This document shows, piece by piece, positions 29,297 through 34,130 of a DNA stretch of 37,974 nucleotides (position 1 is the stretch's first letter; every line of letters starts with the position of its first letter). The DNA is from an uncultured Erysipelotrichaceae bacterium (GTDB lineage: Bacteria > Bacillota_I > Bacilli_A > RF39 > UBA660). Location of the stretch: assembly GCA_902779035.1 (NCBI GenBank), contig CACZAH010000006.1:1-37974 (forward strand), given 5' to 3'. The notes beneath the pieces are model-generated. The model was given only the letters and a program-made list of their open reading frames with translations. It had not been told where the DNA came from and made no database searches. A program made the position numbers and the translations under genes.

Positions 29297-31219
29297 CTAT
29301 ATATCCAAATTCTTGACATACTGTGCATTTTCTTCTATAAAATTACGTCTAGGTTCTACTTCTTCACCCATTAATTTTCCAAACATTGCATCTGCTGCAA
29401 CACAATCATCTACCGTAATTTTCCTTAAAACTCGTTTATTTATGTCCATAGTTGTTTCATTAAGTTCTTCTGCATCCATCTCTCCTAAACCTTTCATACG
29501 AGCAATTTCTGCCCTATTTCTAACGTTTTCAGAAAGAGTTGAAAGATATTCTTCTTTTTCTTTCTCATCAAGTACATATTTACGAGTTTTACCATGCATT
29601 ATTCTAAATAATGGGGGTTGAGCAGCATAAACATGTCCAGCTTCAACAATTGGTCTAAAGAACCTATAGAATAAAGTAAGTAATAATACACGGATATGTG
29701 AACCATCAACATCGGCATCGGTCATGATTATTATTTTGTCATATCTTAATTTATCTAAATTAAATTCATTACCAATTCCTGTACCAAATGCAGTTATAAT
29801 TGTTCTAATTTCTTCATTTCCAAGTGCCTTATCAAGTCTAGCTTTTTCTACATTTAATATTTTACCACGTAAAGGAAGAATAGCTTGAGTCATTGAATCT
29901 CTACCTTTTTTAGCAGATCCACCTGCTGAATCTCCCTCGACTATAAATATTTCAGATACTTTAGGATCTTTACTCTTACAATCAGATAATTTTCCAAAGA
30001 AATTAGTTGTGGCTAAATCACTCTTTCTAGTTATTTCCCGAGCTTTTTTAGCTGCATTTCTAGCTCTACATGCAAGTTGCGCTTTTTCAACAATTATCTT
30101 TGCTTCATCAGGGTTTTCAAGTAAAAATTTCTCAAATCCTTCACTAAATACACTATCAGCTAGTTTTCTAACCTCACTATTTCCCAAGCGTCCCTTAGTT
30201 TGACCTTCAAATTGTGGATTAGGATGCTTACAAGATACAATCATAGTAAGTCCTTCTTTAACATCGTCTCCAGTTAAAGATTCATCTTTATCTTTAATAA
30301 TCCCTGATTTCTTACCATAACTATTAATTACGCGAGTAAGTGCTCTTTTAACTCCATCTTCGTGTGTACCACCATCGTGCGTATTTATATTATTAACAAA
30401 TGAATAAATATTATCATTATATCCATTAGTATATTGTAGAGCAACTTCAAACATTACTCCGTCTTCTTCACCTTCTAAATGGATAATATTCTCATGAATT
30501 GGTGTTTTTTCCTGATTAATAAACTTAACATATTCAGAAATACCACCTTCATAAACAAATGTCTCACCAGTAGTATCCTCATCGTCTCTATCATCTCTAA
30601 GAGTAATTCTAAGACCTTTATTAAGGAATGCTAATTCACGAATTCTTACCTTTAACGTATTATAATCGTAGATATCTGTATCAAATATATCTGGATCTGG
30701 TTTAAATGTAACACTCGTACCAGTTCTCTTTATATCACAATCTCCAATTACTTTTAAAGGTTCAATAGTGTGTCCTCCATTTTCAAAACGAATAAAGTTA
30801 ACTTTACCATTTTTATAAACAGTTACCTCTACCCAAGAAGATAACGCATTAACTACTGATGCACCTACTCCGTGTAGTCCACCAGATACCTTATATCCAC
30901 CACCACCGAATTTTCCTCCAGCGTGAAGTACCGTATATACAGTCTCAACGGTACTTTTCTTAGTTTTTGGATGTATATCAACAGGTATACCACGTCCATC
31001 ATCTTTTACTGTTATAGAATTATCTTTATTAATAATTACTTCAATGTTATTACAATAACCAGCTAAAGACTCATCAATGGCATTATCAACTATTTCCCAA
31101 ACTAGATGATGTAACCCTTTTACATCAGTTGTACCAATATACATACCAGGTCTTTTTCTTACTGCTTCTAATCCTTCCAATACTTGTATATCGGAAGCAT
31201 CATAATGTTCTTCTGTCAT
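29297..31219 (-). CDS. gyrB: DNA gyrase subunit B
   Basis: ATPase subunit of gyrase. [13 protein letters not shown] and [13 protein letters not shown] are the GHKL ATP-binding motifs. [21 protein letters not shown] forms the lid region. [10 protein letters not shown] and [12 protein letters not shown] are the Toprim acidic motifs. Length is 640 residues. GGGAGG lies upstream, and the start overlaps the end of recF by 20 nt, so recF-gyrB are coupled. Confidence 0.98.
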
Positions 31220-32330
31220 CTTTTACCTCCCTATTTAATCTATCTAACTTAATTTTTCCATATTCTATTCTAAATATTTTTGCTTTAGATAGAATATCTT
31301 TATTAAAACTATTTAATGATACAGCAGTAATAATTACTTGCAAATCTCTACTTAAATAGTTTAATAAATTATTATTTTTAATTTCATCTATTTCACTAAA
31401 TACATCATCAAGTAATAAAATTGGTGTAGAATTCTTCCATTTTTTAAATATCTCTATTTCAGATAACTTTAAAGTAAGTACTGATATTCTCATTTGTCCT
31501 TGAGATCCATATAGTTTCAAGTTAAAATCACCTAAATAAAACTCAAAATCATCTTTATGAACACCATAAAATGTTGATAAAAACTTATATTCAGAATCAT
31601 ATTTATCTTTAAATACTTCTAATATCTTATTTTTATCATAATCATACTCACTATAATCTAAATTAGGTTTATACACAATTTTAAAACCAGATAGTCCTGT
31701 TATATTTTTAAATATCTCAGATGCATAATTATTAATTCTTTCTATAAATTTCTTTCTAATTTTAAATATTAATATATCTTTTTCAATTAGAAAAGAAGTA
31801 ATAATATCATAATAATTAATATCCAACGCACCACTTTTTATATAGTCATTACGCATTTTAAGTATTTTCTCATACTCACTAAGTAAAATATAGTAATTAC
31901 TATATAATTGTGATAACTCAGTATTTAAAAACTTTCTCCTAACTAACGGTGGACCTTTTATTATATCTAAATCATCTGGAGTAAATAAAATAGTATTCAT
32001 GACAGATATATAACTACTTACTTTTGTAATCTCACTATCATCAAGTATCATACGTTTCTTAATATTATCATAACTGATATTAAGAGTTGTATCTAACTTA
32101 CTATTTTTAAGTATTCCTTTAATATTAAAGAATTTTCTATCTTTCATAATTAAGTCTGTATCATAGACATTTCTAAAAGTATTAGTAAGAGCAAGAACAT
32201 ATATGCTTTCAAGCAAATTTGTCTTACCTTGTGCATTATTTCCATAAATAATATTAATACCTTTATTAAATGATATTTTAAGACTCGAATAATTTCTAAA
32301 ATTCTTTAATTCTACTCTTTTTAGATACAT
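31200..32330 (-). CDS. recF: recombination and replication repair protein RecF
   Basis: SMC-like ATPase recognising gaps and promoting RecA loading with RecO/Rec[16 protein letters not shown] (about residues 30-44) is the Walker A motif. [15 protein letters not shown] is the ABC signature. [12 protein letters not shown] is Walker B. Length is 376 residues. AGGGG precedes the start. It has its own extended -10 promoter because comK is inserted upstream. Confidence 0.97.
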
Positions 32331-32435: not shown

Positions 32436-32466
32436 CACTAAAAAAAGAAATTATTACATTTCTTTT
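32436..32466 (-). terminator. terminator of comK
   Basis: A 9-bp stem AAAAGAAAT / ATTTCTTTT overlaps the comK stop codon and is followed on the minus strand by a run of T residues. Confidence 0.7.
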
Positions 32467-32903
32467 ATTCTTTCATACAATTTTGTCTTAAGAAGTGATG
32501 CTCGATAATATTGATTATTAAGTAAATAGTATGAAATTGGTAAAACCATACTTTTTCCATTATTAAATACAACTCTACTACCCTTGCCATATTTTTCAAT
32601 TTCTCTAATTTGATTAAAAGATAACCAAATAGATTCTTGAGTACGAACAGAAGATGTTGGAAAGAATATAATCTTTCTTGACTCTTCAATTATTATTGGA
32701 TACTTAGTCTTTAAACCAGTTAAAGATTTAGTTCCTTCACATCTACCTGCATATGAACTACCATAGAATACACAATTATATTTAATGATATTGTTTGTAG
32801 TATCAGATACTTCATACTCTGCATCTTCTTCACAAACAATAGAGACATCTTTTCCACAAGGACGAATCACTTGTGTTGCTTCATTAATCTCGTATTCAGT
32901 CAT
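32454..32903 (-). CDS. comK: ComK-family competence transcription factor (short form)
   Basis: Homologue of ComK, the master activator of competence in Bacilli. Segments that match Bacillus ComK in order are: CVFYGSSYAGR (residues 44-54), FFPTSSVRTQESIWLSFNQI (80-99), and FNNGKSMVLPISYYLLNNQYYRASLLKTKLYERI (113-146). At 149 residues it stops right after the region equivalent to RTKFQDRI. It lacks the C-terminal tail that in Bacillus holds the MecA-binding FMLYP peptide. A terminator follows at once, so this is not a recent truncation. The gene occupies the yaaA position between dnaN and recF and has its own promoter region. Its Shine-Dalgarno GGGGG lies next to a palindrome. The family call is firm; the activity of the short form is inferred. 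Confidence 0.9.
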   Translation of the reverse strand: MTEYEINEATQVIRPCGKDVSIVCEEDAEYEVSDTTNNIIKYNCVFYGSSYAGRCEGTKSLTGLKTKYPIIIEESRKIIFFPTSSVRTQESIWLSFNQIREIEKYGKGSRVVFNNGKSMVLPISYYLLNNQYYRASLLKTKLYERIKEM

Positions 32904-32908
32904 AATAT

Positions 32909-32940
32909 CCCCCTTTCTTGGTATACTGTTATACCAGGGG
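32909..32940 (-). promoter_or_regulatory. palindrome over the comK -10 and Shine-Dalgarno
   Basis: Minus strand: CCCC, TGGTATA, ACAG, TATACCA, AGAAA, GGGG. The 7-bp arms are perfect and the outer CCCC can pair with the GGGG of the comK ribosome binding site. The same segment holds a TG-G-TATAAC extended -10 (32928-32933). It may therefore be an operator, or an RNA hairpin that hides the ribosome binding site if transcription starts further upstream. Confidence 0.5.
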
Positions 32941-32944
32941 ATTT

Positions 32945-32971
32945 AGTCGTATTTTGTCGAATTATGTCTAT
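32945..32971. promoter_or_regulatory. three Spo0A-box-like elements upstream of comK
   Basis: AGTCGTA (32945-32951), TGTCGAA (32955-32961) and TGTCTAT (32965-32971) repeat at exactly 10-bp steps (7-bp box, 3-bp gap). TGTCGAA is the known 0A box; the flanking two match it at 5 of 7 positions. The centre box, read on the minus strand, supplies a -35-like TCGACA 21 bp from the TATAAC. That wide spacing resembles the 22-bp gap in the Spo0A-activated spoIIG promoter. Confidence 0.6.
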
Positions 32972-32986
32972 ATGTTCAAAAATTGT

Positions 32987-33010
32987 AAAAAAAAGGCTAA
33001 AATTGCCTTT
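32987..33010 (-). terminator. terminator of dnaN
   Basis: The minus strand has AAAGGC, a 7-nt loop and GCCTTT followed by a run of T residues, overlapping the dnaN stop codon. It separates dnaN from comK. Confidence 0.75.
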
Positions 33011-34130
33011 AAAATGTCCTAATTGGTAATATTAGTTGAATTAGAGAATCACTATCTACATTTTTGATAATAATAGGTTTAATTTCTCCATTAAAGCATA
33101 ATTCAATCTCTTTACTGTTAAATACTTTAATTGCATCCATCATATATTTAGAACTAAATGAGATATTTAAATTCTTATTTTCATTATTAACAATATTTAT
33201 ATTTTCTTCTACATTACCTATTTCTGGAATATTAGATGTAATTTTAGCTTTATTACTATCAATGAATAGATTAATGATATTTTTCTCTTCTTCATTAGTA
33301 AGTAGTGATGCTCTATCTATTGCATCATAGAAATCATCAAGTTTTACTTTAATAGTAAGTGAATATTCATTTGGAATAAGTTTATCTGTTGCCGGATAAT
33401 TACCATTAATCAATCTAGACATAATTACTAAGTTATTACATTTGAATATTACTTTATTAGAGAAAATGTGTATTTCTATCTTTTCATTATCCTCAGGAAT
33501 CATACGTGATGTTTCAACAAGATTCTTAGATGGAACAACAATATTAACATTGTTATCCACATTTTCATTAAGTTTAATAGTTTTTTTAGATAATCTATAA
33601 GAATCAGTTGCAGTACACTCTAATACATCTTTATTAATTTTAAAATTAATACCAGTAAGTATTGGACGTGATTCTTGCGTAGATGTTGAAAAGATTATCT
33701 GATTAATCATTGTCTTAAATGTATTTTTATCAAGCTTAATAGGATTCTTTGAATATTCTAAGTCAATATTAGGAAATTCATTTGCTTGATTACAATTAAG
33801 TTTAAAAGATGAATTAGTAGTAGTAATTAATACTTGTGAATCAACTACTTCTTCAATAGTAATAATTTCATTACCAAGTTTTCTTATAATTTCATATATA
33901 TATCTACCTGAAATAACTAATTCTCCTAATTCTATAATCTCAGTAATATCTTTTTTATCGATAAATGATTTAATTGCAAACTCATTATTAGTACTTAATA
34001 AGTATAAACCTTCTTCTTTAAGATCAAATTTTATACAATTAAGTATTGGAATTAAGTTTTTAGAAGATACCCCTCTTATTACATAGTTCAAGTTTTCCAC
34101 AAGAACATTTTGTTTAATTCTAATTTTCAT
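33009..34130 (-). CDS. dnaN: DNA polymerase III beta subunit (sliding clamp)
   Basis: Ring-shaped processivity factor of the replicative polymerase. The three-fold repeated clamp domains extend over 373 residues. Recognisable parts are TGINFKI..LECTATDSYRLSKK (about 174-196), PSKNLVETSRM (about 210-220) and the C-terminal LILPIRTF. It follows dnaA, as is nearly universal. AAGG lies upstream of the ATG. A terminator at the stop codon ends the dnaA-dnaN unit before comK. Confidence 0.97.
   Translation of the reverse strand: MKIRIKQNVLVENLNYVIRGVSSKNLIPILNCIKFDLKEEGLYLLSTNNEFAIKSFIDKKDITEIIELGELVISGRYIYEIIRKLGNEIITIEEVVDSQVLITTTNSSFKLNCNQANEFPNIDLEYSKNPIKLDKNTFKTMINQIIFSTSTQESRPILTGINFKINKDVLECTATDSYRLSKKTIKLNENVDNNVNIVVPSKNLVETSRMIPEDNEKIEIHIFSNKVIFKCNNLVIMSRLINGNYPATDKLIPNEYSLTIKVKLDDFYDAIDRASLLTNEEEKNIINLFIDSNKAKITSNIPEIGNVEENINIVNNENKNLNISFSSKYMMDAIKVFNSKEIELCFNGEIKPIIIKNVDSDSLIQLILPIRTF

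Follow-up and report, generated by a model that had tools for sequence, protein, structure and literature searches.

The window, by which we mean the whole stretch of 37,974 nucleotides analysed here, comes from an uncultured, AT-rich lineage of gut Bacilli. A small genome, Spo0A and SpoIIGA have been described for the order RF39 (PMC10868615), and the features of the host fit this description. Annotation and Pfam domains give the gene order dnaA-dnaN-comK-recF at the locus, and the Pfam match of the gene downstream of the boxes considered below bears out its original designation as comK. The relevant features are given below in the direction of transcription; the boxes and the extended -10 were read directly from the sequence, from which the start site and the Shine-Dalgarno were also assigned.

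33009..34130, minus strand: dnaN, upstream neighbour of comK (Pfam DNA_pol3_beta domains)
33010-32992, minus strand: intrinsic dnaN terminator, immediately before the array (6-pair stem, then a T-run)
32971-32965, minus strand: 0A box 1, ATAGACA (comK strand), at about -50 to -44
32961-32955, minus strand: 0A box 2, TTCGACA, a perfect consensus, at about -40 to -34
32951-32945, minus strand: 0A box 3, TACGACT, at about -30 to -24
32936-32928, minus strand: extended -10, TGG-TATAAC (TATAAC at 32933-32928)
about 32921, minus strand: putative transcription start, placed from the -10
within 32921-32901, minus strand: putative Shine-Dalgarno AAGGGGG, then the comK ATG (32903-32901)
32454..32903, minus strand: comK, 149 aa (Pfam PF06338, E 2e-40)
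31200..32330, minus strand: recF, 376 aa, downstream neighbour of comK (Pfam SMC_N)

On the comK strand, 32971-32945 reads ATAGACA-taa-TTCGACA-aaa-TACGACT, which on the plus strand gives AGTCGTA, TGTCGAA and TGTCTAT, and the step from box to box is exactly 10 bp. All of this (three boxes, their sequences, coordinates and phasing) had been proposed in the original prediction and was confirmed when the sequence was re-read. Spo0A contacts G2, C4 and G5 of the 0A box (PMC3485338); box 3 keeps 3/3 of these bases, and box 1 keeps G2 and C4 of TGTCGAA and has lost G5 (2/3 contacts). Three further elements had been missed, namely the extended -10 (TGG), the dnaN terminator just upstream and the position of box 3, which sits within the -35/-10 spacer of the comK promoter. 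TATAAC begins 11 bp after box 3, and this 11-bp spacer ends in TGG. The terminator was found once where 0.1 would be expected in shuffles; since dnaN thus ends in a terminator of its own upstream of the array, comK has its own promoter. A short inverted repeat, GGTATAACAGTATACC, lies over the -10 (window 32920-32935), and the closest relatives keep only part of it.

Conservation of the array and of its register

The array was compared across 151 comK promoters. Almost all of these belong to a single family of the genome taxonomy, mostly with one promoter per genus, and a few of the named-record loci may stem from a species already included. The original prediction depended on the boxes being shared by relatives, and through the family they are kept. 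In these promoters TTCGACA has 109 occurrences in coding-strand orientation and 5 in the reverse one, and boxes with at most one mismatch lie 10 bp (58) or 20 bp (60) apart, all other distances accounting for 9. The 99% shuffle level is exceeded by 109/151 of the comK promoters; the other 42 fall below the threshold, though Spo0A is present in most of the genomes concerned. Mapped on a dnaN tree, the array occurs in every deep branch and has changed at least 18 times; it was therefore probably present in the ancestor of the family and has been lost repeatedly.

The -10 played no part in choosing or aligning the boxes, and it begins 11 bp after box 3 in 83/109 of the array promoters, with TG ahead of it in 66/91 promoters against a background of 4.4%. 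Across the family box 3 is the most conserved of the three (an exact box in 47 promoters) and box 2 the least (20); box 1 is exact in 33 and its position is conserved. The positions of highest information in the aligned array promoters, C6, G4 and C3, are the complements of the Spo0A-contacted G2, C4 and G5. An ordinary -35, with at least four matches to TTGACA at a spacer of 16-18 bp, occurs in 0/91 promoters, which is below background, and at 21 bp box 2 averages 3.8 matches to TTGACA.

These counts bear on two parts of the original prediction, one being that the centre box supplies a -35-like hexamer. The 21 bp between TCGACA of box 2 and TATAAC are as described there, and the same distance is seen family-wide, but the -35 reading is doubtful because box 2 is the least conserved of the three; the likeness of TCGACA to TTGACA arises because TCGACA belongs to a 0A box. 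The other part is the comparison with spoIIG. In B. subtilis, spoIIG and spoIIE are Spo0A-activated sigma-A promoters that have 0A boxes in the -35 region and an unusually wide gap between a TTGACA-like hexamer and the -10. The comK promoter resembles them in the 0A box in its -35 region and in its fixed wide spacing (21 bp here, the B. subtilis spacing being taken from general background), but differs from them in having box 3 in the spacer, at about -30 to -24, and an extended -10. The family's own spoIIGA upstream regions are without the array (0/30), so that ‘spoIIG-like’ is justified only through the analogy to B. subtilis. Its absence at spoIIGA also led us to reject the array as a generic feature of sporulation promoters, and we likewise rejected it as common to all ComK-like genes of the class, since it is missing from those that lie outside the family (0/26). 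The middle promoters of phage T4 combine a MotA box in the -35 region with an extended -10, and are thus alike in having an activator site in the former and the extended form of the latter; this is an analogy of layout only, as the protein is unrelated and no co-activator is known for the comK array.

Activation and repression as readings of the array

The sites, their phase and conservation, their register to the -10, the missing -35 and the presence of Spo0A are all computed here. Such a fixed register, together with an extended -10 that lacks a -35, would be expected of an activator-dependent promoter, and judging from this layout we consider it likely that Spo0A~P directly activates comK through a -35-less, extended -10 promoter carrying the triple array. 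Spo0A~P would occupy the three boxes (about -47, -37 and -27) in head-to-tail order, all on the same face of the helix. As the extended -10, of the TGnTATAAT-like type, is accompanied by no usable -35, Spo0A would take over the -35 contact and so recruit or activate the sigma-A RNA polymerase. If Spo0A does activate comK in this way, ComK production, and hence competence, would become a direct output of the starvation and sporulation regulator. Binding, its dependence on phosphorylation, activation over repression and the competence phenotype are what we infer from the sequence.

The main rival to activation is repression, which is suggested by the position of box 3 within the spacer and by the repressive site that covers the comK -35 in B. 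subtilis. Spo0A occupying -50 to -24 would, according to this alternative, block polymerase from the extended -10, and competence would be off at high Spo0A~P; in a variant, Spo0A~P would activate at low and repress at high levels. A protein bound at box 3 could indeed obstruct polymerase, the R1 site of B. subtilis overlaps the comK -35 and represses (PMC3297582), and the effects of Spo0A on spo0A are mostly repressive (PMC12090719). A repressor site, however, needs no fixed register, yet 83/109 promoters keep the 11 bp; under repression one would also expect the promoter to possess a -35 of its own, and none is present; and the promoters of a kinase and a nuclease, described below, have the same register. 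We therefore regard repression, in both versions taken together, as unlikely.

Activation of comK by Spo0A is not new as a principle, being known from B. subtilis, where Spo0A~P binds PcomK directly and raises comK transcription (Mirouze et al. 2012, PMC3297582). Sites A1-A3 of that promoter act largely against Rok, and R1/R2 repress (PMC3297582). The two promoters are alike in having Spo0A boxes in the comK promoter region, one of which overlaps the -35 region. In B. subtilis, however, the sites are dispersed (the centres of A1 and A3 span about 54 bp) and are accompanied by R1/R2 and by ComK boxes, whereas here there are three contiguous, 10-bp-phased boxes and an extended -10, with no -35, behind the dnaN terminator. 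What is new is the compact triple array in fixed register, with its extended -10, spread over a family; it is undescribed in the literature searched, in which we also found no report on the control of competence in these uncultured small-genome gut bacteria. In this large group of uncultured gut bacteria with small genomes, the array would form a simple link from a regulator of sporulation to DNA uptake, and promoters of this kind could be used to study how Spo0A acts when no -35 is present.

Upstream of the arrays, ComK half-boxes (AAAAN5TTTT) number 52 where 26 are expected, a pattern that is mimicked by the A/T tracts of the dnaN terminator. ComEC was found in 5/7 genomes of the genus and was not found in the host's own 90%-complete assembly; metagenome-assembled genomes miss genes.

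Spo0A in the family and the remaining alternatives

The original prediction also required a spo0A gene. The host encodes a full-length, canonical Spo0A of 251 aa, with a receiver domain and Spo0A_C, which is the one Spo0A_C protein in its genome; its recognition helix, SRVERAIRHAIEV, is that of B. subtilis Spo0A and matches PDB 1lq1 exactly. Among 145 genomes of the family, Spo0A_C is found in 134 and SpoIVA in 123. A comparison of places shows exact box pairs just upstream of spo0A in about ten genomes of the family, and the spo0A genes behind such pairs were read directly for L197, L203, L218 and L224.

There is some evidence that the array goes with Spo0A. Genomes with neither Spo0A nor SpoIVA keep comK and have the array in 0/5 cases, against 97/130 elsewhere (Fisher p 0.0014). 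This comparison is uncorrected for kinship; of its five genomes, three have a place in the tree, and the independent losses are too few for a test allowing for kinship. When all genomes without a Spo0A match are pooled, assembly gaps included, the figures are 92/125 with and 5/10 without, and the difference is not significant (p 0.14). The array is present in 5/5 genomes in which SpoIVA is present and Spo0A undetected.

The last of these counts might suggest that another regulator with a related motif, rather than Spo0A, uses the array, which is present in five of the ten family genomes without a detected Spo0A; the binding of Spo0A to the array is, after all, predicted from sequence. These five genomes do have SpoIVA, so that an assembly gap is the simpler reason and probably the cause of the undetected Spo0A. 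The base preferences of the array agree, moreover, with the contacts of Spo0A, and the host's single Spo0A_C protein has the canonical recognition helix. We consider the involvement of another regulator very improbable.

It is a more tentative proposal, to which we give slightly less than an even chance, that these promoters constitute a dedicated class in which a triple array replaces the -35, making competence an obligatory direct output of Spo0A, and that Spo0A is kept mainly for comK where sporulation has been lost. The latter idea is based on the array being present in 10/13 genomes that have a Spo0A match but no SpoIVA, and the array in this way bears on why Spo0A persists in lineages apparently without sporulation. 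Six genomes (G065, G085, G087, G110, G124 and G153) lack SpoIVA and give divergent Spo0A_C matches, in frames that are mostly short (143-173 aa; 220 aa in G065); to judge by their length, the short frames may have lost the receiver domain. A clear comK array is seen in 4/6 of these genomes.

In B. subtilis Spo0A controls the initiation of replication at oriC. It could thus be supposed that the boxes serve a replication origin, Spo0A near dnaA-dnaN controlling initiation, and that comK lies downstream by accident. The array does stand between dnaN and recF, and there is a second one in the host's own genome:

35870-35906 of the window, minus strand: second 0A array, about 210 bp upstream of dnaA, among DnaA boxes

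The first 17 bases of this second array, ATAGACATAATTCGACA, are also the first 17 of the comK array. A similar array upstream of dnaA is, however, seen in only 2/19 relatives, and the dnaA-upstream array may therefore be lineage-specific. The array is, moreover, kept at 6/10 comK genes that are not behind dnaN, and its register to the comK -10 is conserved. An origin function was accordingly rejected as highly unlikely.

A motif scan, proposed with the original prediction, ranks the comK array first among the triples on both strands of the window, with a score of 19.4; the best triples of 200 dinucleotide-shuffled copies of the complete window have a mean of 13.3 and a maximum of 18.5. Lone 7-bp boxes with mismatches are cheap in AT-rich DNA, but that the array is a chance likeness in AT-rich promoter DNA was rejected as virtually without probability, since 0/200 shuffled windows and 0/3000 shuffled comK promoters reach it and the boxes are conserved in phase across the family.

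Other arrays in the genome and their genes

A single box plus a -10 proved too weak a search pattern, the control being as common as the signal, and was rejected. In a pattern search over the host's whole assembly (1.19 Mb in 51 contigs, 90% complete), CGAC-N6-CGAC-N6-CGAC with at most two mismatches gives 4 matches at 3 places, and its reversed control gives none. The three places are in front of comK, a membrane sensor histidine kinase (HisKA, HATPase_c) and an MvaI/BcnI-type nuclease, and at 3/3 of them the -10 lies exactly 11 bp after box 3. The close relative G002 also has the arrays of the kinase and the nuclease. Three phased boxes, 11 bp and an extended -10 thus amount to a promoter rule that is seen at three places in the host's own genome and predicts other targets. 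The promoter design proposed for comK would then also drive the kinase and the nuclease; the kinase perhaps feeds Spo0A, and if it activates Spo0A while itself under Spo0A control, a positive loop would result.

The triple array before the kinase, with its 11-bp register, is L232 (G000:C12:24221-24247) in the host and L235 in G002. In several other genera, kinase-like genes of about the same length are preceded by exact box pairs (L196, L206, L207, L212, L214 and L216). The array before the MvaI/BcnI-type restriction endonuclease gene (L178, G000:C1:84724-84764; L181/L234 in G002) is followed by a perfect extended -10, and the endonuclease gene of G002 is divergent from one whose product has an N-terminus like that of type IV pilins. 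An exact 0A box pair is also found upstream of an agrB-like peptide-signalling gene (L231, G000:C2:65740-65756; L233 in G002), where a -10-like hexamer lies about 20 bp from the boxes, not 11. Finally, one genome, G125, has a set of near-identical copies (L241, L242, L244, L246 and L248-L250) consisting of TCAAGAAA or GCAAGAAA and then TCGTTCGACAAAATTCGACA; not all of these stand before genes, and the set resembles a dispersed repeat more than it does promoters.
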